This document shows positions 12,772 through 58,182 of a stretch of 64,000 nt of DNA, piece by piece. The stretch's first letter is position 1. Each line of letters starts with the position of its first letter. The notes beneath the pieces were generated by a model. That model had not been told where the DNA came from. It worked only from the letters and a program-made list of their open reading frames with translations, and made no database searches. Origin of the DNA: a virus; IMG/VR virus record IMGVR_UViG_3300032116_000013, positions 1-64,000 of that record. The stretch is one strand, 5' to 3'. A program made the position numbers and the translations under genes.

Positions 12772-13524
12772 ATGATAAGAAACCTAGATCTTGTTGGTTT
12801 GCGAGAGCAATTCAACTCAGCAAAACCATTTGATCACGTTGTCATTGATGACTTCTTCGAATTAGAAGTTGCGGAGGCGATCAAAAACGAATTCCCTTCG
12901 CATGAAGATCCCGTCTGGACTGTTTCCTATGACAATCCAGTAGAAAAGAAAAAAGCCTGTTCTCATTGGGATAGGTTCCCAAAGTCCATTTATAATGCAA
13001 TATTTTATCTTTGCAGTAATGCCTTTGTAGAAAAGATCAATAGGATTACTGGTAATGATGTGGTGTATGCAGACTACGGTTTACATGGCGGCGGAATGCA
13101 TTCACACTGCAATGGTGGATTGCTGAACGTCCATAAGGATTACTCAATACATCCTAAACTTGGTCTGATGAGAAATTACAATCTCATTATTTACATGACG
13201 CCTGATTGGGATTCTTCATGGGGTGGTGGACTAGAACTTTGGAGCCACGACGAAGAAACTAACTTGCCGAAAGAATGCATTACAAAAGTTGAAAACAAAT
13301 TCAACCGAGCAATTCTTTTTGACACCACACAGAATTCCTGGCATGGTCTGCCCGAGCAACTGACTTGTCCTGAAAATGTTTCGCGTTGCAGTTTGGCTAC
13401 ATACTATGTAAGTGATATTTCTAACATGGCTGAAGATAGAAATCGCGCCTTGTTTGTTCCAAACCAAAAACAAAAAGGCGATTCAGAAGTTATTGAATTT
13501 TGTAAAAAAAGAAGTGGATTATAA
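12772..13524 (+). CDS. 2-oxoglutarate/Fe(II) oxygenase, first gene of glycan cassette
   Basis: A 250-residue 2OG-Fe(II) oxygenase. Metal ligands fit LNVHKDYS (HxD) and WHGLPE (distal His), with Arg in VSRCSLATYYVS for the cosubstrate. It resembles enzymes placed in glycan clusters that hydroxylate sugars or peptides. It joins the next glycosyltransferase gene directly and AT content rises from here, marking the start of the accessory cassette. The substrate is unknown. Confidence 0.8.
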   Translation: MIRNLDLVGLREQFNSAKPFDHVVIDDFFELEVAEAIKNEFPSHEDPVWTVSYDNPVEKKKACSHWDRFPKSIYNAIFYLCSNAFVEKINRITGNDVVYADYGLHGGGMHSHCNGGLLNVHKDYSIHPKLGLMRNYNLIIYMTPDWDSSWGGGLELWSHDEETNLPKECITKVENKFNRAILFDTTQNSWHGLPEQLTCPENVSRCSLATYYVSDISNMAEDRNRALFVPNQKQKGDSEVIEFCKKRSGL

Positions 13525-14237
13525 TGAAAGTTGCAGTAGTTACTCCAACAATAGGATCGCCTGATCTTAAAAAGTGTTTGTCTAGCGTACAAGAACAAAC
13601 ATATGAAAATCTAACTCATTACGTGTTTTTGGATGGACAAGAACACTATGATAAAATTCATCCGATGCTTTATGATGCAGCAGGCAAGCGAACAATTAAA
13701 ACTGTTCAGTTAGAAGATAACGTCGGCAAAGGCTGGTATGGTCATCGAGTATATGCTGCTTGTTCTTTCATTGTAAATGCCGATTTGATCATTTATCTAG
13801 ACCAAGATAACTGGATAGAACCTAATCATGTTGAGAGCCTAGTAGAATTAGTAGATAAAAATAATCTTTCTTGGGCATATAGCCTTCGCAAAATTTACGA
13901 TAAAGATGAGAATTTTATTTGTGAAGATAATTGCGAAAATTTAGGCAAGTGGCCAACTTGGTTTGATCACAGAGTTCATCACATAGATACCTCATGTTTT
14001 GCAGTAAAAACTGAAGTCGCAGTTCAAGTTGGACATTCTTGGTATGGAAAATGGGGAGCAGATAGAAAGTTTTTCTATACTCTTATGAATTACTTTAACA
14101 AATTTGAATGCAGTAAAAAGTACACCATGTGCTATAGATTGGGCGGAAATGAGGGATCTGTAAACAAAGAATTTTTCTTGGAAGGAAATGCCAAGATGAA
14201 TAAAATGTATAATGATAAGTTACCTTGGAGGGAATGA
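13524..14237 (+). CDS. Glycosyltransferase family 2-like protein
   Basis: A GT-A fold glycosyltransferase of 237 residues. The N-terminal VAVVTPTIGSPDLKKCL strand-loop binds the nucleotide sugar, and LIIYLDQDNWIEP supplies the DxD-like metal motif near residue 95. A later WGADRKFF segment is consistent with the acceptor side. It probably transfers a sugar to a cell-surface, virion or DNA acceptor; which cannot be decided. Confidence 0.82.
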   Translation: MKVAVVTPTIGSPDLKKCLSSVQEQTYENLTHYVFLDGQEHYDKIHPMLYDAAGKRTIKTVQLEDNVGKGWYGHRVYAACSFIVNADLIIYLDQDNWIEPNHVESLVELVDKNNLSWAYSLRKIYDKDENFICEDNCENLGKWPTWFDHRVHHIDTSCFAVKTEVAVQVGHSWYGKWGADRKFFYTLMNYFNKFECSKKYTMCYRLGGNEGSVNKEFFLEGNAKMNKMYNDKLPWRE

Positions 14238-14983
14238 TGAAATTTTCTGTGATAGTTCCAACAATGTGGATGGCTAATGACTATTTTCTTCAGATGTTGA
14301 AGTTTATGGTCGGTAACGATGCAGTCGGCGAAATAATCATTATTGATAACAATTCTAAAGATAGACCGACAGATGAGAATTTAACAAATGAAAAAGTTAA
14401 AATTCTAGATTTCGGTAAGAATTTATTTTTCAATAAAAGTTTGAATGTTGGAGTAGAAAATTCTAAGTTTGAATTAATTTGTTTGTTAAATGACGATGTT
14501 ATTTTTGATCCTGCAATTTTTAGTTCTTTGGCTGACGCATATAAATCTGAACAATTTCCCAGAGAGTCAGTGGGTATGATCTACCCACATCCAGCATTTT
14601 TTAATAGAATGGAAGAAAATATAGAACTAATTCAAAAACTTGAAATGGTTCCCTGCCACGAGACTATAGATGGATATGGCTGCTGTATGTTTGTGCATAA
14701 AAATAATTATAAGCCTATCCCTGAAGAACTAGTGCAGCATTTTGGTGATGTTTGGTTCCATAAAAATCAAGAAATGAACGGCAGAACAAATTTTTGGCTA
14801 TACAATTGGGTAGTTATGACTGTAATGCGCGTTACAACTGAGAAGGTTCACGAGGCGCATCAAAAAATTATCGAAGATTGGAAAATAGCACAAGAAGTTT
14901 TTGCAAAACATGGAATTCAAATAGAAGATCATTCTAGAGATTTTCCAGTATTTAAAGCAGGTCTTCTAACAAGATTTAATTAA
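14237..14983 (+). CDS. Glycosyltransferase family 2-like protein
   Basis: A 248-residue GT-A protein starting at TGATG with GGAGG upstream. FSVIVPTMW is the N-terminal strand, IIIIDNNSKD follows, and LNDDVIF carries the DDx metal motif. An ATG three bases earlier is equally in frame, but its spacing to the ribosome site is poorer. It forms a pair with the preceding GT and precedes the sugar nucleotidyltransferase. Confidence 0.82.
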   Translation: MKFSVIVPTMWMANDYFLQMLKFMVGNDAVGEIIIIDNNSKDRPTDENLTNEKVKILDFGKNLFFNKSLNVGVENSKFELICLLNDDVIFDPAIFSSLADAYKSEQFPRESVGMIYPHPAFFNRMEENIELIQKLEMVPCHETIDGYGCCMFVHKNNYKPIPEELVQHFGDVWFHKNQEMNGRTNFWLYNWVVMTVMRVTTEKVHEAHQKIIEDWKIAQEVFAKHGIQIEDHSRDFPVFKAGLLTRFN

Positions 14984-14987
14984 TATC

Positions 14988-15713
14988 ATGAATGTTATAA
15001 TTCCAATGGCTGGCAGGGGCGTTAGATTCCAAAAAGAATACTCAACACCAAAGCCGCTGATAGATGTTAATGGGACTCCGATGGTTGTAAGAGCAATTAA
15101 TTCTCTTGGCATACCTCAATGTAATTACTTTTTTTTGATTCGTAAAGACGAGTATCAGCATGAAATAGAAAAGGTATTAAAATCAACTAAACCTGGCTGC
15201 GTTATAATTGCAATAGATTATGTGACTGAGGGACCAGCCATTTCTGCTCTTTTGTTTGAAGATTACATCAACAATGATGAAGAACTTATTGTTGCTAACT
15301 GCGATCAAATAATGGAATGGAATTCTTTTCAATTTTTGCACAATGCTCGCTGCGAAATTTATGATGGGCTAGTTGTAACATATTACTCAGATACTGATAA
15401 AAATAGTTACGCTAAACTAGATAGTAATGGTTATGTTTGCGAGATTCGTGAAAAAGAAGTTATAAGTAATATCAGCCTTAATGGTATTCATTATTGGAGG
15501 AAGGGTAAATACTTCGTCGAAAGTGCAAGGGATATGATTGTCGCTCAAGATAGAGCACCTAACGGCGAATTCTATATCGCTCCTTCATACAATTATATGA
15601 TTAAGCGTGGCTTAAAAGTTGGGATTCATCATATACCAAACGAACAACATCATGCAGTTGGTGTTCCAGTTGACTTGGATAGATTTTTAAGATATGATAA
15701 AGCGAAACATTAA
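14988..15713 (+). CDS. Sugar nucleotidyltransferase (NTP transferase family)
   Basis: Activates a sugar phosphate with an NTP. The signature MAGRGVRFQKEYSTPKPLI near residues 7-25 is the nucleotide-binding GxGxRF...PKPL motif, and VANCDQI gives the metal Asp near residue 105. The 241-residue size fits short nucleotidyltransferases of surface-glycan clusters. The sugar is unknown; it may be the product of the neighbouring RuBisCO-like or ROK enzymes. Confidence 0.83.
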   Translation: MNVIIPMAGRGVRFQKEYSTPKPLIDVNGTPMVVRAINSLGIPQCNYFFLIRKDEYQHEIEKVLKSTKPGCVIIAIDYVTEGPAISALLFEDYINNDEELIVANCDQIMEWNSFQFLHNARCEIYDGLVVTYYSDTDKNSYAKLDSNGYVCEIREKEVISNISLNGIHYWRKGKYFVESARDMIVAQDRAPNGEFYIAPSYNYMIKRGLKVGIHHIPNEQHHAVGVPVDLDRFLRYDKAKH

Positions 15714-16017
15714 TGAATTTTGGCGTGGATGGTTCATTGGAAATTTTGAACCAAGCATATTAAAGACCTCAGAATTTGAGGTTGGTGTGTTGACTCATTT
15801 GAAAGGCGAAGTTTGGCCAAAACATTATCATGCAGTTGCAACTGAATATAATGTGCTGCTGTCAGGTAAGATGCGTATTTGTGGAGAAGTAATTGAATCT
15901 GGTGATGTTTTTGTGTTAGAGCCAAATGAAATTGCCAATCCAGAATTTTTAGAAGATTGTAAAGTATTGTGCGTTAAAACTCCTAGCGTGAAGGGTGATA
16001 AGTATGAAGTTTTTTAG
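15694..16017 (+). CDS. Cupin-domain protein
   Basis: A 107-residue single-domain cupin: KHYHAVATEYNVLLSG carries the metal-binding His pair and Glu of motif 1, and IESGDVFVLEPNEI is motif 2. It overlaps the nucleotidyltransferase by 20 bases and the RuBisCO-like gene by 14, so the three are likely made in ratio. It may act as a sugar-phosphate isomerase, epimerase or sensor. Confidence 0.8.
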   Translation: MIKRNINEFWRGWFIGNFEPSILKTSEFEVGVLTHLKGEVWPKHYHAVATEYNVLLSGKMRICGEVIESGDVFVLEPNEIANPEFLEDCKVLCVKTPSVKGDKYEVF

Positions 16018-17242
16018 AGAATTAACTCCAGCAGAACGAGATCGTTGTGTTGTAGTAACATACTACATTGAAACCTATAGCGAAATTGGCGATCTTAGAG
16101 ATGCCGCATGGAACCTTGCTATCGGACAGAGTGTGGGTAATCCCAAAGTCAGAAACCGTTGGGAAAGTGATGCGCTGTTTGAACTTGCTAGTTGTGTAAT
16201 CTATCATGATGAAAGTGAATTGGTTGGTAAACATTCTGGCGTAGTGCAGATTGGATTCCCCAAAGTAAATTCAGACTGGGAAGGCGACGGTATCAGCCAT
16301 CTCATGTGCCAGTTGATGGGCGGACAGATGGACATCGATGTATTCAAAGCCTGTCGCTTGAAGAAGATTGAATTCCCACCAGATGTAGAAGCCTACTTCC
16401 TTGGACCAAAGCGTGGTATCACAGGTATTAGAAAGTTTGTAAATCGTTATGACAAGCCTTTGTCAGGCGGCATTGTCAAACCCAAGACAGGTATTAGTCC
16501 TGCTACTTTGGCAGACATGGTTAAAGAACTACTGGATGGTGGTGTTGATTTTATCAAGGAAGATGAAATCCTTTCCAATCCCTCGTTCTGCCGTTTGGAA
16601 GATAGAGTTGAACTAATCAGCAATATCGTAAACAATTGCGGTCGTGGTGTAATCTACTGCTTCTGTATCAACGGTGATCATCACACTATTTTGGATCGCG
16701 CTAAGTTTGTAGCAGCCAACGGTGGTAATGGCATCCACATCAACTTCTGGAGTGGCTTGGGTGTATACAACTCAGTTCGCAAACTAGACTTGCCTTTGTT
16801 TGTACACTATCAAAAGAGTGGCGATAAGATTCTTACTGACAAGCGCAATCCTTTTGGTATTGATTGGGCTGTGCTCTGCGATCTCGCAGGACTATGTGGC
16901 GTGGATACAATCCATGCTGGAATGTGGGGTGGTTATCTCAGCGATGATATTGAGGAACTGCGAAATACGATGGAAGTGCTACACAAGCGCAACACTTTGC
17001 CAGCATTGAGTTGCGGTATGCATCCTGGAATTGTAAATCCAACTGCTGAGAAGTTTGGTACAGATTTTCTTGCTAACTGCGGTGGTGCCATTCACGGACA
17101 CCCAGGTGGTACACTAGCAGGTGCTCTTGCTATGCGTCAGGCTATTGACAAGACACCAGGACCAGAGTTTCGTGTTGCTATTGAAAAGTGGGGGTACAAG
17201 ACCGACGGTGGAAGTTTGCCTGAGTGGGTTTTAGAATTTTAA
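16004..17242 (+). CDS. RuBisCO-like protein (form IV large-subunit family)
   Basis: A 412-residue member of the RuBisCO large-subunit superfamily. By hand alignment to plant RbcL, the KPK motif (K159, K161 for K175, K177), the carbamate/metal triad (K185, D187, E188 for K201, D203, E204), H268 (H294), H304 (H327), S336 (S379) and G360-G361 are kept. R295 becomes Y269, K334 becomes Y311, and the E60, T65, W66 and N123 positions are changed, arguing against CO2 fixation and for a form IV enolase, decarboxylase or transcarboxylase. ATG 16004 is preferred to a GTG at 15995. Its GC is higher than that of its flanking genes. Confidence 0.9.
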   Translation: MKFFRELTPAERDRCVVVTYYIETYSEIGDLRDAAWNLAIGQSVGNPKVRNRWESDALFELASCVIYHDESELVGKHSGVVQIGFPKVNSDWEGDGISHLMCQLMGGQMDIDVFKACRLKKIEFPPDVEAYFLGPKRGITGIRKFVNRYDKPLSGGIVKPKTGISPATLADMVKELLDGGVDFIKEDEILSNPSFCRLEDRVELISNIVNNCGRGVIYCFCINGDHHTILDRAKFVAANGGNGIHINFWSGLGVYNSVRKLDLPLFVHYQKSGDKILTDKRNPFGIDWAVLCDLAGLCGVDTIHAGMWGGYLSDDIEELRNTMEVLHKRNTLPALSCGMHPGIVNPTAEKFGTDFLANCGGAIHGHPGGTLAGALAMRQAIDKTPGPEFRVAIEKWGYKTDGGSLPEWVLEF

Positions 17243-17260
17243 TTTTCATCGGAGAATGCC

Positions 17261-17920
17261 ATGAGCACATATTACGAAAACAATAAACATGTAAAATGGA
17301 AATATGATCTAATCAAAGATATTACCGTTAATAGTCAAGTGCACGTGGATCAGGATAGCGCAATATACTCAGGTCCTTTAATTGCTAAAGAAATTTCTGA
17401 CTGCAATTTAGATGCTTTCAGAAAACTATTTTCTTCTAGAGTTAAATCAACTGATGCTATTCTTGAAATAGGTGTTAACAGAATAGAAAAAGATGGCGGC
17501 AGCACTAAAGAAGGTGAAAGTTTTAGTTCAATTATGTTGGAATTGAAGCGCAAAAAGACAAAATACTTTGGTATTGATGTGATTGATAAAACATATTTGA
17601 ATGATATCAGCAACAACGTTCACATCATTCATAATGATTCTTCTAATTACAATACCAATGTTTCTGTTTTGAAAAGTCACGGAGTTGAAATTATAGATTT
17701 ACTGTTTATTGATGGTTGGCACAGTATTATGCAAGTTATTAGAGATTGGGAATATACTAATCTATTGTCAGATCATGGTGTAGTTGTTTTTCATGACACC
17801 AATTATCACCCAGGACCAAGAGAGTTTTGCGCAGCACTCAACAGAGAAATGTGGAACGTAGACTATCACTGCACAAACAATGATGATTGGGGTATTGCAT
17901 TCGTAACTAAAAAACTATGA
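17261..17920 (+). CDS. SAM-dependent methyltransferase-like protein
   Basis: A 219-residue Rossmann-type protein: AILEIGVNRIEKDGG is the SAM loop, YFGIDVID a second strand, and LLFIDGWHSIMQVIRDWEY with VVVFHDTNYHPGP matches the Methyltransf_24 / cephalosporin-hydroxylase-like group found in glycan clusters. It likely methylates a sugar hydroxyl. An aggag-like site precedes the ATG in the 18-base gap after the RuBisCO-like gene. Confidence 0.72.
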   Translation: MSTYYENNKHVKWKYDLIKDITVNSQVHVDQDSAIYSGPLIAKEISDCNLDAFRKLFSSRVKSTDAILEIGVNRIEKDGGSTKEGESFSSIMLELKRKKTKYFGIDVIDKTYLNDISNNVHIIHNDSSNYNTNVSVLKSHGVEIIDLLFIDGWHSIMQVIRDWEYTNLLSDHGVVVFHDTNYHPGPREFCAALNREMWNVDYHCTNNDDWGIAFVTKKL

Positions 17921-18372
17921 GAATAATATCACATCGAGGAAATGTTCAAGGACCAGATCCTGTTTCTGAAAACTCAATTTCTAGTATAGAATTGGCAGTC
18001 AGTCTTGGTTTTGATGTTGAAATAGATTTATGGTTTATAGATGGCAAATTTTTTCTAGGTCATGATGATCCTATCAATGAAGTCTCCGTAGATTTTTTGC
18101 AAAAACATAGCAAACAATTATGGATTCACTGTAAAAATGTTGATGCAGTAGTGGAACTACAAGAACTAAATACTTTGTATAACTACAATTACTTTTGGCA
18201 CGAATCAGATACGATTACTCTAACCAGTAATGGCTACATTTGGGCATATGTAGGCAAGCAGCCAATAAAAAATAGTATCGCAGTTATGCCTGAAAAATTC
18301 CCAGAGCAAGAAATTAAATCATGTTTTGGTATATGCACAGACTTTCCAATAAAATATAGAGAGGCAAATTAA
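17917..18372 (+). CDS. Short glycerophosphodiester phosphodiesterase-like protein
   Basis: The N-terminus has the GDPD signature: ISHRGN (catalytic His), SENSISSIELAV, EIDLWFIDGKFFLGHDDP (metal Glu, Asp and second His). At 151 residues it is about 60% of a usual GDPD; the C-terminal segments WIHCKN and YIWAYVG are present but the barrel is compressed. This compact type appears near surface-sugar genes and may cleave a phosphodiester in a glycan. It starts at an ATGA overlap. Confidence 0.72.
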   Translation: MRIISHRGNVQGPDPVSENSISSIELAVSLGFDVEIDLWFIDGKFFLGHDDPINEVSVDFLQKHSKQLWIHCKNVDAVVELQELNTLYNYNYFWHESDTITLTSNGYIWAYVGKQPIKNSIAVMPEKFPEQEIKSCFGICTDFPIKYREAN

Positions 18373-19055
18373 TGAACAGAAATCCTTGTATCATTTCAGT
18401 ATACATGCAAAATATTGATCAAAAGACTACTACTCTACAGAAAGCAGTAGTAGATAAATTCAATAAATCAAACATTACCTTTCATCAAGTTATAACTGGC
18501 GGGACTCATGGCGCCACTATGACTCTATTGATGCCTATGTTAGAGCAAATGGGTCATGATGCAGTATTATTTTTAGACGTTGACTGCGTTCCAGTTGATG
18601 ATTCTGCTATTGACTTTATGTTTGAAAACGTATATAACGGTAAACTGATCGGTGACGCGCAAAGAACCAATCATATTGACAATAATCAGCATGTTTTCTG
18701 TGGCGCTCATAATGTTGGATTCACTATGGATTTGTACTCAAGAATCGGTAAGCCATCATTTGAGCCAACTCCTAGAGGCGACGTTGCAGAAGAGTTGACT
18801 TATTTGGCTAGAGAGAATAATATAGACGTACATCTTCTAATGCCATTAAGTTACGATGCTCCTCCTTTAAGAATGGCATGGGAACCACAAAACCTACCAC
18901 CATATTGGTCTTTGGCTGATGGAATGCCTAATTTTGGTATTGGTACAACTTATGGAGAAGGTGATAAACCTTTGTTTTGGCATTGCTGGCAAATTTTCCA
19001 ACCTGGTCAGCAAGAACGTTTTTGGAATAAATGTGAGGAATTATTGAATGGCTAA
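18372..19055 (+). CDS. Glycosyltransferase-like protein with DVD motif
   Basis: A 227-residue protein with VLFLDVDCVPVDD at about residues 69-81, the DxD motif of GT-A enzymes, and a C-terminal PLFWHCWQIF segment. The N-terminus (PCIISVYMQNID) is an atypical GT-A start. Position in the cassette and the DVD support a glycosyltransferase; the acceptor is unknown. Confidence 0.68.
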   Translation: MNRNPCIISVYMQNIDQKTTTLQKAVVDKFNKSNITFHQVITGGTHGATMTLLMPMLEQMGHDAVLFLDVDCVPVDDSAIDFMFENVYNGKLIGDAQRTNHIDNNQHVFCGAHNVGFTMDLYSRIGKPSFEPTPRGDVAEELTYLARENNIDVHLLMPLSYDAPPLRMAWEPQNLPPYWSLADGMPNFGIGTTYGEGDKPLFWHCWQIFQPGQQERFWNKCEELLNG

Positions 19056-19254
19056 TAGATCAGATTTTTTTGGTGCAAAGTTGCCACGCGGATTCAAGCG
19101 CATGCTCGCTATGGAACAAGCGAATGGCTGGGTCAAAGACTCTCATGAGTATGGTAAGGTCAAAAAACTTTTTATTGATGCCCATGCCAGCCATGTGAGA
19201 CATAAACTCAAGCGCAACACTGAAAATAGAGATGCAAGCGAAGCAACTGAATAA
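19048..19254 (+). CDS. Small conserved phage protein, 68 aa
   Basis: Basic protein beginning MANRSDFFGAKLPRGFKRML, with KKLFIDAHASHVRHK near the end. I recognise the DFFGAKLPRGFKRM pattern as recurrent in T4-like phages, without a known function. It is unlike the glycan genes around it and overlaps the kinase gene by 23 bases. Confidence 0.65.
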   Translation: MANRSDFFGAKLPRGFKRMLAMEQANGWVKDSHEYGKVKKLFIDAHASHVRHKLKRNTENRDASEATE

Positions 19255-19990
19255 TGTTCTTGGAGTAGATGTTGGTGGTACATTCACTAAAATAGGATTA
19301 GTTGATACTTCAACTGGTGAATGTGAAACGATCTTTAAAATTAAAACGCCCAAAAACGAACATCCTGATGTTTTGTTTAAAAGCATAAAAGAACAAATAT
19401 CAGATCAATATGACGTAATAGGTTTCGGGATACCTTGCATAGTCAAAGAAGGTATCACGAAAACTGCACCTAATATTGGTAAAGAATGGTATGGATTAAA
19501 CATCAAGCAGTTAGCAACAGAATATTTTGGTGTTAACTGCGAAGTGTTAAATGATGCTGATGCTGCCGCGATGGCTGAAATAAAATTTGGTGCTATTAAA
19601 AATCTTCCAGGAGTTACGGTATTTTTAACTTTTGGAACTGGGATAGGAACTGCAATCTATCACAATAATTCACTATTGTTAAACACTGAATTCGGAAGAA
19701 TGGCATTACCTAACGGAATAGATAATGCCGAACTAATTGCATCAGCACTTTTGATAGAAAAGATGAATTTAACTTGGGAAGAATACGCTGAAAGAGTTAA
19801 TTTGTATCTAGAAGAAATCAATAAATGCTTTTGGCCAGATAATATTGTAATTGGTGGAGGAATAAGCGACGCTTGGGATCAATGGCATAAGTATTTAATT
19901 TCTCCGAGTAAAATTTATAAAGCAAAATATGGAAACAGTGCAGGAGTAATAGGTTCTGCAATATACGCTAGGAGTTGTTTAGATGAATAG
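19232..19990 (+). CDS. ROK-family kinase, polyphosphate-glucokinase-like
   Basis: A 252-residue sugar kinase. Phosphate loop LGVDVGGTFTKIGLVD is at residues 10-25, LNDADAAAMAE holds the catalytic Asp, FLTFGTGIGTAI is phosphate 2, TEFGR follows, and NIVIGGGISD is the adenosine motif. The NDADAA form and WEEYAERV segment match polyphosphate glucokinases more than NagK-type ROKs; the HxGH zinc motif is missing. It could phosphorylate glucose with polyphosphate or ATP, feeding the nucleotidyltransferase. ATG 19232 is within the preceding gene. Confidence 0.85.
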   Translation: MQAKQLNNVLGVDVGGTFTKIGLVDTSTGECETIFKIKTPKNEHPDVLFKSIKEQISDQYDVIGFGIPCIVKEGITKTAPNIGKEWYGLNIKQLATEYFGVNCEVLNDADAAAMAEIKFGAIKNLPGVTVFLTFGTGIGTAIYHNNSLLLNTEFGRMALPNGIDNAELIASALLIEKMNLTWEEYAERVNLYLEEINKCFWPDNIVIGGGISDAWDQWHKYLISPSKIYKAKYGNSAGVIGSAIYARSCLDE

Positions 19991-29061: not shown

Positions 29062-30201
29062 ATGCAACGATTTCGACTATTCGTAGAATCATTTCTATCA
29101 GAAGCCAAAGAAGCAGTTGGCATTCAGCACATAGAGCACCCTTCCGATCTGACGTTTGATGGTCCGAAACCCGCGCAACATGCTCTGACTACACTCAGGG
29201 GTGTTGCGATGGGTCGTACCCCAGCCACTCGTAAAATTGACGACAGAATGTCATTTCAAATCAAAAGAGATGACACAGGCAAAGTCGGAGTAAAGTATAA
29301 AGGCGCTGGTTCAAGTTATAATTATTCTAATGATGACATTGAACGTCAGCATGGACACAAGCCTTATCTAGCAAGTCCATTAAAGACTATTCTTGCACAC
29401 GCTCATAAAATTCTTCCTAATAGATCTGGAGAATGGCAGGGTGGGTTTATGTCCACACCTGAAACTCGTGAAGAAAAGGGTGGTCGTATTGGACACACAC
29501 CTAATACAGTCTCATATTCAGTCCCTAAAGATTCTTCAGAAGGCAAAAAACTTGCTAAATCTAGAGTCAGTATAGCACTTCATACTGAACTCAAAGGACC
29601 AAAGCGTAAGGCGACGCCTGTTATTGATCAGTCAGAATTCCGTTCTCACCCAGATGTGCATTTGGTTGATCACTCAGTTTCAAAAGAACAACAAAAAATT
29701 CCTGCTGCAGCAAAAAAGAAAGTCCTAGAACATATTTCTGCTGCTCAGTCTCTAATGAAAAACCATGACTATGGTCATTTAGCAGGTCATGAAACACACT
29801 TAAGAACTTATATAAACTCAACTCTTGATACTGGCGAAAAGCCAAGCGTCGAAGGTTATAAGAAACACCTCGGCGGAAGATTACAAAAAGAAATCGACAA
29901 AGTAAAAACTGAGAAGGCTAAGAATCAAAAAGCAGCGCAGCGCGATGCTCACATGGCTCACATTGATAATAACAAAGAAGCCTTCAATCGCTCATTTGAA
30001 ATTCATCACCACGTTCAGCAAGCAACTAACGCTCTTGCAGATGCTCTAAATAAAACTGCGCATGGCGGTGTCAAAACTGAAATCGCAGGAAAAGAATCAG
30101 GCGGCGAAGGGTTTGTTTCTAAGGGAATTAAACTTGTAAATCGCTTAGAATTTAGTAAAGCAAATCGTGCAAGAAGCGCACTATTAAGAGCAAAAATATG
30201 A
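29062..30201 (+). CDS. Putative internal head protein, DUF6267-like
   Basis: A 379-residue protein with the capsid-targeting-type N-terminus MQRFRLFVESFLSE (LSE at residues 12-14, then A). The segments QHIEHPSDLTFDG, GEWQGGFM, HTPNTVSYSVP and RVSIALHTELKG match a family (DUF6267, from memory) of T4-like phages that looks distantly like nucleotide-binding ligase folds. The second half is helical and charged. It heads the late head-protein block. Confidence 0.68.
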   Translation: MQRFRLFVESFLSEAKEAVGIQHIEHPSDLTFDGPKPAQHALTTLRGVAMGRTPATRKIDDRMSFQIKRDDTGKVGVKYKGAGSSYNYSNDDIERQHGHKPYLASPLKTILAHAHKILPNRSGEWQGGFMSTPETREEKGGRIGHTPNTVSYSVPKDSSEGKKLAKSRVSIALHTELKGPKRKATPVIDQSEFRSHPDVHLVDHSVSKEQQKIPAAAKKKVLEHISAAQSLMKNHDYGHLAGHETHLRTYINSTLDTGEKPSVEGYKKHLGGRLQKEIDKVKTEKAKNQKAAQRDAHMAHIDNNKEAFNRSFEIHHHVQQATNALADALNKTAHGGVKTEIAGKESGGEGFVSKGIKLVNRLEFSKANRARSALLRAKI

Positions 30202-32804
30202 GTAAAGCAACATTTACCTTTGGCAGGTTCAATCCTCCTACCGAACAGGGTCATGGTAAACTGGTAAAGGCAGTTCAGGATCACGCCGAATCAACTGGTG
30301 GAACTCATTATATTTTTCCTACTCGTACGCAAGATCCTAAGAAAAATCCAATGTCGCATGAGGAAAAAGTGGGCGCTATGCGCAAATTGTTTCCTGAGGC
30401 AAATGTTATTTCTCACGAAAAAGTTAGAACAGCAATTGATGCGATGAAACACCTAGAATCAAAAGGTCATACTCATGTGACAATGATTGTTGGTTCTGAT
30501 CGCGTTGCTGAGTTTCAGGGATTGCTAACGAAATATCGTAAAAAAGAATTTCCTGGAATTAAAAAAGTGGAAGTTAAGTCAGCAGGACATCGCGATCCAG
30601 ATGCCGAAGGCGCAGAAGGAATGTCAGCATCTAAACTTCGCGGTCTAGTTGCTGCTGGAAAGAAAGATGAGTTCGTCTCACACTACAGTGATAAAAAACT
30701 TGGCAAACAAATACACGACACAGTAAAAGCGGGAATGCAAATGGAATCAATCAATCCTATTGGAATCTTCTTACTTGGTGCACCTGGTAGCGGAAAAGAC
30801 TATGTTTTGAATAACATCTTTTCACGCTTTGATCTCACAGAGGTACAGGCTGATCAAATTCTAAATCAATCAGCAAATGAATTGTATGAGAGCAAAACTA
30901 ATCTCGTCATTAATGGCGCATTAGATGAATCGCGAATTGCTAAGATTCAAGACATGTTGCATGAGCACGGATACACCTACGATTTCGTTTACGTTTCTGT
31001 TACCAATAAAGTCTCACGTCTACGCAATGAACAACGCGAGAATCCTATTCAAGAAAACAAGCGTATTGATAAATTCCTAAAGACAGAAAAACTTGCTGCG
31101 TTTGTTGAGGCACATGTATTCAATAACTCAATCAATCTAAACGAATCTTCAGAAATGGAGAAAGTTTTCTTTGCTAGCGAAATTCAGAAACTCCTAGAAA
31201 GAGTTATCTCTCTAGGTTTAGAAATGAAAGAAATTGAAAAAAAAGATGAACCTAGACCAAAATCGCTAACTGAAATTAAAAAGGCTACTGGCGATCTAAA
31301 AAATGCATGCTGGAAGGGTTATACCGCAATCGGCATGAAAACTAAGAATGGGAAAAAAGTTCCTAATTGCGTTCCAGTAAAAGAGGAAGAAGAACTTCAA
31401 GAAGAACTACCAAAAAAACTTCGCAGACTACCTAGAAAGGGTAATAGAACAAAAGTATTGGCAGCAAGAGAAAACAATATTTCTGAAATGCAATTAGTAG
31501 GAACTGATGAGTATAAAAAACATGCTATTGCTATGACTCCTGGTCAAGAGCAAGAAATTGAAACTCCATTAGAAACAGATTGCGGATGCGGCGGCGATTG
31601 TCAGTGTAATGAAACTGCTGCTTATGCCAAAAAAGATTTTAGAAGTTTAAGAAAAGAAACTGTTGATGGAGTAGATGTCACTCCGACGCTAAAACCAAAA
31701 AAAACAAAATCTAAGCCACCTTCTCCAGACAGATTAAACATGACAGTGGATGGATTGCCAATCACTTCTGTTTTTACGAGAGAAGAAAAACTTAGAGAAG
31801 CCGTTGAGTACCATCTCGAGAATAAGATTTCGTTCACTGAAAACGTCTTCCGTCCAGGATCAGATATGTTCTTTGAGATGATAAACGAAGCCAAGCGTCT
31901 ATATGCAGAAGGACAATATACTCCTGCTGATGAATGGGAAGCCGATATGCTCAATTCAGACATCGGTGAAACGGCAATCTACGAAGGTCGGGAAGTGATT
32001 CTTGACTATCCATTCGAAGAAGATATGGAACAAATTGATGAGGTGTTCAACACAGTTTATCCACACACATATCACGGGACTTTACGCCCAGAAGACCCTA
32101 AAAGCGAAAATGGACCTGAACACCTGTACACATTCCGAATCCCAGGAAAAGGAAATCTACAACATACTTATTCTGTCTCAATTAATCGCTTTCAAGGTAA
32201 AAAGGGCAGTTTATCGTTCGGGTATCACGGAAAAAAACCTGCAGATTTTGTCCCAGTAGGTAAACATGGAGACAGAAAATATTTTGAAGCAGGGGAACAT
32301 GAAATTACTGGCGAAGGTGGTGGAAAGGCTTCTTCAATCATCTCAACAGTTAAGTCTATTGCACAAAAACACGCGAAAAAACACGGTTTAAAAACAATGG
32401 TATTTGCTGGCAGCAGCGATGAGCCATCGAGATCTAAACTCTACAATAGAATTGTAAATCGAATGGGCGGTAAAGAACACAGATCTGACGATGATGAGTT
32501 TGATCCGTATAGAGAGTATTCGGTTCCTATGAAAGAAGAATCCGACCCAACAGATGGTAAAGGTATCGGCAAGCCATGGCGCGAAGGCGGCGGCGGTGCG
32601 GTTTATGTCCGTACAGGCGATGGTGGCGTAAAGAAGGTTCGCTTCAGTCAATCTGGAATGGCTAAGAAATTTAATGATCCAGCCAGAGTTCGTTCTTTCG
32701 TCGCTCGTCATCGCTGCTTGACCAACAAGGATAAGACCTCGGCTTCGTACTGGGCTTGCAGATGGCCAAGATTCTTTAGCAACTCTGGGAAGACTTGGTG
32801 GTAA
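30198..32804 (+). CDS. Large multidomain protein: nucleotidyltransferase + P-loop kinase + C-terminal domains
   Basis: An 868-residue protein. Residues 6-20 (FTFGRFNPPTEQGHG) and 141-148 (GMSASKLR) are cytidylyltransferase/NMNAT motifs. FLLGAPGSGK at 191-200 is a P-loop of a zeta/AAA_33-like kinase domain. Residues 368-392 hold NACWKGYTAIGMKTKNGKK, a recurrent T4-like phage motif. A CxCxxxCxC cluster is at 462-470. LNE, ISE, INE and EQIDE (314, 428, 562, 611) are protease-like sites. The end contains SASYWACRWPR. The first two domains echo NadR, so NAD or nucleotide metabolism is a reasonable guess. Confidence 0.78.
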   Translation: MSKATFTFGRFNPPTEQGHGKLVKAVQDHAESTGGTHYIFPTRTQDPKKNPMSHEEKVGAMRKLFPEANVISHEKVRTAIDAMKHLESKGHTHVTMIVGSDRVAEFQGLLTKYRKKEFPGIKKVEVKSAGHRDPDAEGAEGMSASKLRGLVAAGKKDEFVSHYSDKKLGKQIHDTVKAGMQMESINPIGIFLLGAPGSGKDYVLNNIFSRFDLTEVQADQILNQSANELYESKTNLVINGALDESRIAKIQDMLHEHGYTYDFVYVSVTNKVSRLRNEQRENPIQENKRIDKFLKTEKLAAFVEAHVFNNSINLNESSEMEKVFFASEIQKLLERVISLGLEMKEIEKKDEPRPKSLTEIKKATGDLKNACWKGYTAIGMKTKNGKKVPNCVPVKEEEELQEELPKKLRRLPRKGNRTKVLAARENNISEMQLVGTDEYKKHAIAMTPGQEQEIETPLETDCGCGGDCQCNETAAYAKKDFRSLRKETVDGVDVTPTLKPKKTKSKPPSPDRLNMTVDGLPITSVFTREEKLREAVEYHLENKISFTENVFRPGSDMFFEMINEAKRLYAEGQYTPADEWEADMLNSDIGETAIYEGREVILDYPFEEDMEQIDEVFNTVYPHTYHGTLRPEDPKSENGPEHLYTFRIPGKGNLQHTYSVSINRFQGKKGSLSFGYHGKKPADFVPVGKHGDRKYFEAGEHEITGEGGGKASSIISTVKSIAQKHAKKHGLKTMVFAGSSDEPSRSKLYNRIVNRMGGKEHRSDDDEFDPYREYSVPMKEESDPTDGKGIGKPWREGGGGAVYVRTGDGGVKKVRFSQSGMAKKFNDPARVRSFVARHRCLTNKDKTSASYWACRWPRFFSNSGKTWW

Positions 32805-56805: not shown

Positions 56806-58182
56806 ATGAATGAAGCAATTACACAATTAAACACAGACTCTATCCCCCAAACAATTAATCCGAACTTACTAGATGAAATGAATTGGGGTCCTAATGAACC
56901 AAATTTTGTAAATCTACTGAAGTCTGAGATTTTAATTGAAAAAATATATGAGAAATATTTTGAGGTTAGAGAAGGTGATACAGTAGTAGATGTTGGCGCC
57001 AATGTTGGCGCATTTGCAGCCTCTATTCTACACAAAAAACCTAAACATGTTTATTGCGTAGAGCCATCTAATGTCTTGGTAAAGTGCATACAAGAAAATG
57101 TTCTGAAATACTCAGAAAAGAATCCAGTTCCAGTTACAATTGTAAACGCTGCTATTTCTAATGAGAATAAACTCGCAACTGAAATCCCAGATAATGACGG
57201 AGTTTTTGTATATTATAATGAAGGTAATTTATACAATAAAATAACTTTCAAAGAACTATTATCTGTAACAAATATCAAAAAGATAGATTTCTTAAAATTC
57301 GACTGTGAGGGCGGCGAATACGACATCTTTACTAAAGAAAATTATGATTTTATTTCTAACAACGTAAAGCATATGGTCGGTGAGTGGCATATCAATGACC
57401 ATAAAAACGCTGTGGAAAGGTTTATAGAATTTAGAGATTTGTATTTAAAAAATCATAAGAATTTTAAAGTCTTGGAAAGAGACGGTAAGGATGTAACTTT
57501 TGAGATTTTTGATAACAATTTTTTATACAGATTCCAGGAATGGTATCGAGAAACTCAACACGGACAATTTTTTATCTATATGAACAACGACAAACCAGAA
57601 GAAGCATTTCTAATTAATAAAAACTCTAACTCTAAAATTTGGGTTGTAGAAGATTTTTATGTGAATCCATTCATGGTAAGAGACTTTGCTTTAAAGCAGC
57701 AGTACATGGAAGGTGGATTCGGTAGAGGATTCATAGGTAAGAGAACATATCTACAGTTTCTATTCCCAGGTCTGAAAGAGCGTTTCGAAGAAATTATGGG
57801 AGTTAAGATTACTAGATGGGAAGATCATGGAATGAATGGCAGATTCCAGTTGTCTTATGCTGGAGAGCCATTAGTATATCACTGCGACGAACAGAGATGG
57901 GCTGCTATGCTGTTTTTGACTCCAGATGCTCCATTTGAAGCAGGAACAACAATGCACGCGCACAAGAAAACTAGAATGCGCCACAAAGATCACCCTGAAG
58001 TTTATTCTGTATTCACAGGGCATACAACTCTAGATAAAACACCATACGAAGAAGTTGATGTTATCGGGAATGTCTTTAATAGATTAGTTATATTTGACGC
58101 TGGAAACATACACTCTGCTTCTCAGTATTTCGGATACAATAATGATAACTGCAGATTGTGGCAAATGTTTTTCTTCGACTAA
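56806..58182 (+). CDS. FkbM methyltransferase fused to a 2OG-oxygenase-like domain
   Basis: A 458-residue fusion. Residues about 55-200 are FkbM: VVDVGANVGAFAASIL, YCVEPSN, IDFLKFDCEGGEYDIF and VGEWH. From about residue 275, WVVEDFYVNPFMVRDFA, GEPLVYHCDEQRWAAMLFLTPDAP and NRLVIFDAGNIHSASQYFG form a jelly-roll dioxygenase-like domain (DUF6445-like). It would methylate and perhaps hydroxylate the same glycan. The FkbM half has a stand-alone paralogue at 59135. Confidence 0.8.
   Translation: MNEAITQLNTDSIPQTINPNLLDEMNWGPNEPNFVNLLKSEILIEKIYEKYFEVREGDTVVDVGANVGAFAASILHKKPKHVYCVEPSNVLVKCIQENVLKYSEKNPVPVTIVNAAISNENKLATEIPDNDGVFVYYNEGNLYNKITFKELLSVTNIKKIDFLKFDCEGGEYDIFTKENYDFISNNVKHMVGEWHINDHKNAVERFIEFRDLYLKNHKNFKVLERDGKDVTFEIFDNNFLYRFQEWYRETQHGQFFIYMNNDKPEEAFLINKNSNSKIWVVEDFYVNPFMVRDFALKQQYMEGGFGRGFIGKRTYLQFLFPGLKERFEEIMGVKITRWEDHGMNGRFQLSYAGEPLVYHCDEQRWAAMLFLTPDAPFEAGTTMHAHKKTRMRHKDHPEVYSVFTGHTTLDKTPYEEVDVIGNVFNRLVIFDAGNIHSASQYFGYNNDNCRLWQMFFFD

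Follow-up and report, generated by a model that had tools for sequence, protein, structure and literature searches.

RuBisCO-like proteins linked to a sugar nucleotidyltransferase in phages and cells: a possible role in nucleotide-sugar biosynthesis

RuBisCO relatives have established roles in carbon fixation, in methionine salvage and in the breakdown of apiose. A further member of this superfamily, a RuBisCO-like protein (RLP), is encoded in the 64,000-nucleotide stretch of viral DNA analysed here (the window), which makes up bases 1-64000 of the 197,424-base IMG/VR record IMGVR_UViG_3300032116_000013, where it lies in a run of ten genes together with a sugar nucleotidyltransferase (NTase), a small cupin and a compact GDPD-like protein. 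The clade of this RLP is read here, with a probability of roughly 0.55, as a group of non-carboxylating RuBisCO homologues in nucleotide-sugar biosynthesis, which would act as enolising ketose-phosphate isomerases feeding the NTase. RLP residues are given in the numbering of Form I RuBisCO unless stated to be those of the window RLP.

Sections of PMC6302742 describe known RLPs as enzymes that enolise ketose or keto-sugar phosphates, with MtnW tautomerising its substrate, the Rhodospirillum rubrum enzyme shifting a carbonyl and the apiose enzymes decarboxylating or transcarboxylating. OiaX, the 3-oxo-isoapionate-4-phosphate decarboxylase of D-apiose catabolism, resembles the RLP of the module in keeping the Mg-carbamate triad and K175 and in its keto-sugar phosphate substrate, but it belongs to another clade, keeps K334 and H294 and lacks K177, and in the one annotated region examined (7.2 kb) it is surrounded by transporter and aldo/keto reductase genes, with no NTase or GDPD. 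MtnW, the 2,3-diketo-5-methylthiopentyl-1-phosphate enolase, is likewise enolising and non-carboxylating, and a MtnW-like sequence has lost K334 too; this single row of the tree, however, lies outside the module clade on a long branch, and the RLP reaches only 146.6 and 110 bits against MtnW cut-offs of 409 and 513.6. Orthology with OiaX or MtnW was rejected because the NCBIfam cut-offs are missed and the clades are different. In the R. rubrum shunt a Deep-Ykr RLP, the methylthioribulose-1-phosphate (MTRu-1-P) 1,3-isomerase, is paired with a cupin and a ketulose phosphate is isomerised, as may be the case here, but the shunt serves sulfur salvage, and in a shunt-type pair the RLP is 24% identical to that of the window and has H at E204 while the cupin is unalignable by BLASTP.

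The part of the Global Ocean Sampling report in PMC1821046 that was available describes 65 marine metagenomic RuBisCO homologues of unknown role in new groups outside the four forms. The module RLPs share the marine metagenomic origin and the position outside the four forms, no phage or NTase link is named in that part of the report (PMC1821046), and the module clade may include some of the 65. Glycan and nucleoside-diphosphate (NDP)-sugar islands of cyanophages are described in a portion of PMC7824862. Four such regions, from Bellamy, S-CAM9, S-SKS1 and B23, resemble the module in having NTase relatives among glycosyltransferase or epimerase genes, and Bellamy and SynMITS9220M01 share its cupin; unlike the module, the islands have no RLP, and the Bellamy NTase lies within a longer protein annotated as a phosphatase. 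In this Synechococcus phage (157642-169953, locus L345) the cupin gp207, annotated as hypothetical, directly follows the “phosphatase” gp206, which matches the NTase over its first part. Among 50,697 deposited phage records not one contains the RLP, while 19 of them have NTase relatives and three Synechococcus phage records have the cupin. A search of the open-access PubMed Central literature, with preprints outside its scope, found no description of the gene context of this clade or of the module.

Clade, active site and selection of the RuBisCO-like protein

The RLP gene is intact and gives the sole PF00016 match in the source record; this match and one to PDB 2cwx (E 6.1e-39) place its product in the RuBisCO superfamily. 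Judged by the start positions of its relatives, ATG 16004 is more likely to be the start codon than GTG 15995. The module RLPs occupy one side of a branch in a first maximum-likelihood tree (35 of 68 rows, support 100/99) and form one clade in a second (35 of 73 rows, support 100/100), apart from the Form I, II and III, OiaX-like, MtnW-like and methylthioribulose-isomerase-like rows tested. The second tree adds Deep-Ykr-like and other rows, leaves out the long-branch sequences L097 and L100 and keeps L174, L339 and L341 on long branches; one of its rows, L082, duplicates L042. A place in a well-studied RLP clade, which the first-pass annotation had named as refuting its reading, was not obtained: the RLP falls into none of the characterised clades included in this tree, which is without Global Ocean Sampling and named IV-Photo rows. 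Viral and cellular rows are intermixed, with at least four changes forced, so that genes have moved between phages and cells, although some “cellular” contigs may be stray viral DNA.

All 35 rows of the clade keep K175, K177, K201, D203, E204, S379 and G403, and an active metal site is therefore expected. In the window RLP, K187 is equivalent to K201, the lysine carbamylated in RuBisCO, and has D189 and E190 as its acidic partners, while K161 and K163 correspond to the two catalytic lysines K175 and K177. All 35 rows also share the replacements E60 to G, T65 to N, N123 to G, H294 to Q, K334 to Y and G380 to C, and 33 of them have R295 changed to K; among the other 38 tree rows, by contrast, H294 is kept in every one and K334 in 34. 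This signature fits an enzyme that enolises without carboxylating. The loss of E60, N123, H294 and K334 throughout the clade, together with a rubisco_III score of 188.6 against a cut-off of 497.45, sets the protein apart from bona fide RuBisCO of Forms I-III; as a RuBisCO homologue with carboxylase residues replaced it would count among the Form IV RLPs in the broad sense. The RLP alignment has 18 rows, made up of the window sequence and 17 of 79 relatives at less than 80% identity.

Strong purifying selection acts on the RLP, which is constrained more tightly than its partners. In nine viral comparisons (14 loci were compared overall) 59-69% of the four-fold degenerate sites differ while 85-89% of the residues are identical; the four-fold sites are thus near saturation, from which it follows that the protein is held by selection. 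The partner proteins in the same nine comparisons are 38-65% identical. In six loci (L004, L005, L007, L010, L018 and L058) the RLP is 86-88% identical to that of the window and the NTase and cupin only 37-48%. This contrast could reflect either an exchange of partners or a much stronger constraint on the RLP, and the near-saturated four-fold sites in L005 and L007 favour constraint.

The conserved gene unit in phages and cells

The conserved unit consists of the NTase, the small cupin, the RLP and the compact GDPD-like protein, and the remaining genes of the cassette are local or variable. A scan of IMG/VR gave 264 stretches, 262 of them encoding an RLP relative, of which the best 80 were examined; the best 80 of 529 stretches from a cupin search and the best 80 of 88 from a search with a phosphomannomutase (PMM) were added, and the three samples share contigs. 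Under a strict tblastn linkage rule (same strand, at most 1.5 kb from the RLP), by which five of the 80 viral and three of 23 cellular loci lie too near a contig end to be judged, an NTase stands beside the RLP in all 75 judged viral loci and in 47 of 47 RLP clusters at 95% identity. The cupin follows with 64 of the 75 loci and 40 of the 47 clusters, and 62 of the 75 loci have, by tblastn, a GDPD at any position. When neighbours within 7 kb were clustered in 103 viral and cellular loci, the RLP (103), NTase (95), GDPD (76) and cupin (71) came before the next family (43); this clustering uses open reading frames picked by length, which are unreliable in GC-rich loci, whereas the other linkage counts use tblastn. 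The reciprocal search from the cupin found the NTase in 74, the RLP in 61 and the GDPD in 59 of 75 loci with both flanks. The recurrent linkage bears out the first-pass annotation in that RLP, NTase and cupin belong together, and the neighbourhood is present in other phages and in bacteria, contrary to the absence from all related phages that the annotation had named as refuting.

The ten genes, all open and on the + strand, are:

12772-13524, +, 2-oxoglutarate (2OG)-Fe(II) oxygenase (PF13640, 54.5 bits); local gene
13524-14237, +, GT2 glycosyltransferase (PF00535, 36.6 bits); local gene
14237-14983, +, second GT2 glycosyltransferase (PF00535, 32.3 bits); local gene
14988-15713, +, sugar nucleotidyltransferase of NTP_transferase type (PF12804, 31.3 bits, cut-off 27); module core
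15694-16017, +, small cupin of 107 aa (AlphaFold pLDDT 96.7); module core in most phages
16004-17242, +, RuBisCO-like protein (PF00016, 143.5 bits, cut-off 30.1); separate clade
17261-17920, +, methyltransferase (PF13578, 35.3 bits); frequent, not constant neighbour
17917-18372, +, compact GDPD-like protein (model pLDDT 96.5, best match GDPD 1v8e); module core
18372-19055, +, glycosyltransferase-like protein with DVD motif (assigned from sequence, no family match)
19232-19990, +, ROK-family sugar kinase (PF00480, 79 bits); local gene

This glycan gene cluster is phage DNA, since the window also encodes the DNA polymerase (phrog_262), UvsX (phrog_97) and DnaB-like helicase (phrog_19) of a T4-like replication block, as well as a ribonucleotide reductase and proteins of the virion. 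The genes lie where they had been placed before, and their description as contiguous and overlapping is nearly right: six of the nine junctions overlap, and the other three leave 4 bases between the second GT2 and the NTase, 18 between the RLP and the methyltransferase, and 176 ahead of the ROK gene. As for the labels, the 2OG oxygenase, both GT2s, the NTase, the RLP, the methyltransferase and the ROK kinase are above Pfam cut-offs, while the cupin and GDPD fall below theirs and the DVD-motif protein has no match in Pfam, NCBIfam or PHROG. The ROK kinase is closest to the polyphosphate glucokinase model NF045942 (208.5 bits, below the cut-off of 250).

A single pathway comprising all ten genes is not supported, as relatives of the 2OG oxygenase, the GT2s, the DVD-motif protein and the ROK kinase stand near few other RLP copies. 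Among the 80 viral loci, the oxygenase recurs only in L002 and L003, which are 100% identical copies, and in L036, and the ROK kinase only in L002 and L003; these two genes were rejected as core genes for want of conservation. Apart from the identical copies, the GT2 at 13524 has a relative only in L059, which also has a homologue of the DVD-motif protein, and the GT2 at 14237 has none. Methyltransferase relatives were found by tblastn in 27 of the 80. Elsewhere in the window, an 868-aa protein (30198-32804) matches in its N-terminal part the phage cytidyltransferase families phrog_3041 (E 2.4e-42) and phrog_395 and may give this phage a further activation reaction for making glycans. A 458-aa protein (56806-58182) is methyltransferase-like at its N-terminus (phrog_8156) and like the minor coat protein family phrog_1644 at its C-terminus; phrog_1644 is also matched weakly by the oxygenase at 12772.

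At E values up to 0.01 the NTase has one sequence relative of solved structure, PDB 4evw (E 2.5e-15), deposited as a “nucleoside-diphosphate-sugar pyrophosphorylase”. The cupin scores 20.5 in Pfam, below the cut-off of 27, and its AlphaFold model has a cupin fold, with the archaeal phosphomannose isomerase 7zvy (Z 13.4) as best VIA match; 33 of 46 non-redundant cupins were aligned. The GDPD-like protein scores 14.5 against a Pfam cut-off of 23.6, and its model best matches the Thermus GDPD 1v8e (E 8.7e-4), although it is much shorter than the full barrel. Its residues H6, R7, N19, E35, D37, G48 and H49 are invariant in 31 of 31 aligned rows and include HR...E-x-D...H, the catalytic motif of GDPDs. 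These rows come from 36 chosen among 56 non-redundant GDPDs; L057 and L067 were left out for a stop in the coordinates used, and L062, L068 and L075 with them. By the catalytic residues and the modelled fold the protein would qualify as a GDPD phosphodiesterase; the alignment yielded no searchable pattern.

The module is not a phage speciality, since cells carry RLP-NTase loci too. A non-exhaustive scan of a genome collection with two peptide patterns gave 32 loci, 23 of which score at least 302 bits with the viral profile; the other nine score at most 203, and three of the four of these that were scanned pass a Form II or III RuBisCO cut-off. Among the 23 loci are ones from SAR11, another alphaproteobacterium, three Legionella species, Azospirillum oleiclasticum, Bacteroidota, Elusimicrobia, Verrucomicrobiia, Patescibacteria and nanoarchaeal metagenome-assembled genomes (MAGs). 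Of the 20 judged loci, 18 have the NTase and seven the cupin by the strict rule, and 13 have a GDPD; the two NTase exceptions are the Patescibacteria locus L087, where an NTase is close by on the opposite strand, and the Woesearchaeota locus L104, where the contig ends inside the RLP. A complete GDPD-RLP-cupin-NTase run exists in A. oleiclasticum and on an Elusimicrobia MAG contig. A 706-aa frame in Azospirillum that suggested an RLP-NTase fusion was rejected as a largely out-of-frame reading of GC-rich DNA, the genes being separate, and the Azospirillum cupin found no viral relative when used as a query. Loci without the cupin include the SAR11 loci L083 and L084, the bare RLP-NTase pairs of the three Legionella species, and L090-L094 and L096, five of these six being from SAR11 single-amplified genomes or MAGs, with the arrangement GDPD, NTase-like gene, RLP and second NTase.

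Neighbours of the cellular loci favour surface glycans as the destination of the product. Upstream of the L. nautarum pair, the one Legionella pair examined, the other strand bears a LicD gene and another gene that matches Wzy weakly, with 16.4 bits against a cut-off of 31.7. A scan of the neighbours of six cellular loci showed genes for GT17 and GT61 at L094, GT2s at L087, GT25 at L100 and LicD at L101. Nothing among the neighbours of these six points to DNA, and DNA modification as a role of the module has no support. L082 (DORI01000002.1), a 3.3-kb contig binned as Crocinitomicaceae (Bacteroidota), shares its RLP domain without any difference with the viral locus L042 and is probably viral DNA in a genome bin; other short single-cell or metagenome contigs may also be viral, which makes the count of transfers between cells and phages soft. 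A ThyX-like gene accompanies the module in the SAR11 loci L090-L093; in L093, the only one of them scanned, it scores 190 bits with PF02511. The neighbour cluster of this gene has members in four cellular and three viral loci.

A phosphomannomutase in the place of the RLP

The RLP is lacking in 17 of the 80 loci of the cupin sample, in one case owing to the end of the contig. Nine of the 12 such loci that were read have a eukaryotic-type PMM between cupin and GDPD, in the slot of the RLP. Two of the nine were scanned with Pfam, where the PMM gave 80.6 bits with PF03332 (cut-off 22.4), and it matches the PDB phosphomannomutase 5ue7 (E 4.4e-20); eight of the nine PMMs were aligned. The 80 loci of the PMM search, which were not dereplicated, comprise 27 with NTase-cupin-PMM-GDPD, 43 with the PMM alone in the DNA at hand, three on contigs that start inside the PMM and continue into the GDPD, and seven with cupin, RLP and PMM together. 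The record of the window phage contains no PMM of this family.

A quick tree of cupin plus NTase from 91 non-redundant loci (72 with RLP, 15 with PMM, three with both and one with neither) unites the PMM form in one clade (SH-aLRT 98), so the swap occurred once or a few times and the small P value for an exclusion of RLP and PMM is not independent evidence. Strict mutual exclusion was rejected: none of 54 non-redundant loci from the cupin search has the two side by side, but seven loci of the PMM sample have both. The PMM in the RLP slot points to sugar phosphates as substrates of the module, yet it does not prove that the product is the same, and the loci with both genes argue against a simple replacement. 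These are L285, L287, L288, L290, L291, L293 and L320; in L285, L288, L290 and L293 the starts of neighbouring proteins resemble, by eye, SGNH hydrolases, sugar dehydrogenases and DegT aminotransferases. In L211, a cupin-GDPD locus without RLP or PMM, a 367-aa protein (480-1583) joins an NTase part to a HAD phosphatase-like part and is perhaps a third way of supplying the NTase.

Proposed chemistry and its alternatives

Gene linkage, clade, signature residues, predicted folds and selection are the observations from which the following scheme is drawn, and its chemistry, order of steps, partner roles and product destination are put forward on that footing. The RLP would bind Mg2+ through carbamylated K187 with D189 and E190 and, aided by K161 and K163, enolise a ketose phosphate; re-protonation at another position would then isomerise or epimerise the sugar phosphate with no CO2 fixed. 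As the RLP-NTase pair is near-constant, the RLP should make the substrate of the NTase or share a pathway with it, and the NTase would convert the product into an NDP-sugar or NDP-alditol. The cupin and the compact GDPD-like protein might then modify the product, the cupin most likely by isomerising a sugar phosphate, and the GDPD-like protein would act on a phosphodiester. Transfer of the activated sugar to a glycan of the surface or the virion would fall to glycosyltransferases, which differ between phages. The RLP had been proposed to rearrange or decarboxylate a ketose phosphate: isomerisation or epimerisation is favoured, and decarboxylation is less likely because the loop-6 residue K334 is lost in the whole clade, while it is kept in 17 of 17 OiaX and OiaX-like rows.

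Several points weigh against this scheme. The NTase sequence, including its match to 4evw, fixes neither nucleotide nor sugar, and cupins of unrelated function lie within 1-2 Z units (12.0-12.5) of the 7zvy match. No cupin is present in 11 of the 75 viral and 13 of the 20 cellular loci that were judged, so it must be dispensable or replaced by another gene. In 14 of the 75 cupin loci the RLP itself is missing although its partners remain, and it is thus inessential to some versions of the operon. Gene linkage alone, moreover, cannot reveal the order of steps.

A more specific version, which is unlikely, makes the RLP and cupin together the equivalent of a phosphomutase that walks the carbonyl along the sugar: from a ketose 5-phosphate the RLP would make a ketose 1-phosphate, which the cupin would convert to an aldose 1-phosphate for activation by the NTase; in the sister operons cupin and PMM would arrive at the same result by moving the phosphate. 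The NTase-cupin-PMM-GDPD loci and the resemblance of the cupin to archaeal phosphomannose isomerases speak for it, as does the R. rubrum RLP, which according to PMC6302742 performs such a shift from MTRu-1-P to methylthioxylulose 5-phosphate (MTXu-5-P). The PMM swap, however, counts about once, seven of the 80 PMM loci have both enzymes, RLP-NTase loci without a cupin exist, and the shunt-type RLP rows fall outside the module clade. The widest form of this idea, in which an entire RuBisCO-superfamily clade serves nucleotide sugars instead of carbon or sulfur metabolism, brings a central ketose phosphate into a form open to activation by an NTase through carbonyl rather than phosphate migration, and is spread between hosts by phages that build a glycan sugar with it, is speculative and likewise unlikely.

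Unlikely, too, is an OiaX-like decarboxylase or transcarboxylase, which would strip CO2 from a 3-keto sugar-acid phosphate and hand a short ketose phosphate to the NTase. The NCBIfam OiaX model (NF042437) does match the RLP with 147.5 bits, plasmid genes annotated as OiaX are 28.7-31.4% identical among the matches listed, and the change of N123 to G is shared by six of six OiaX rows and the module clade; yet the score is far under the cut-off of 700, and the OiaX rows form another clade and, with the OiaX-like rows, retain the K334 and H294 that the module clade has lost. Sulfur salvage after the R. rubrum methylthioadenosine (MTA)-isoprenoid shunt, with RLP and cupin acting in sequence, is very unlikely, even though the two are a known functional pair there according to parts of PMC6302742 and PMC4958253. 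The shunt-type pair of L175, a locus in a genome from the phylum of the Legionella locus, served as control (cupin to 3jzv Rru_A2000, E 9.4e-44; RLP to 3qfw, E 1.1e-78): against its cupin the phage cupin gives no BLASTP alignment (E up to 100), its RLP (row L344) shows the low identity given above and lies, with the similar L341, in another clade with His at E204, and no salvage gene was seen among the recurrent neighbours scanned. Identity with the RLP and cupin of that shunt was rejected on this comparison. A true carboxylase for auxiliary phage carbon fixation is extremely unlikely: Form III RuBisCO is the top NCBIfam match, but the missed cut-off, the four residues replaced in all rows and the separate clade argue against it, and a carbon-fixing phage RuBisCO was rejected on the lost residues and the cut-off.

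The non-carboxylating isomerase feeding an NTase is thus the reading retained here; the superfamily is a known one, the clade is new, and the type of pathway is probably new as well. If true, it would add anabolic nucleotide-sugar chemistry to the RuBisCO superfamily, through a clade that has a fixed active site of its own and is tied to a sugar-activating enzyme in phages, bacteria and archaea alike. It would also mean that RuBisCO-family matches in viral metagenomes need not signify carbon fixation. The four small proteins of the module offer a defined set for bench study of an unassigned group of RuBisCO homologues.

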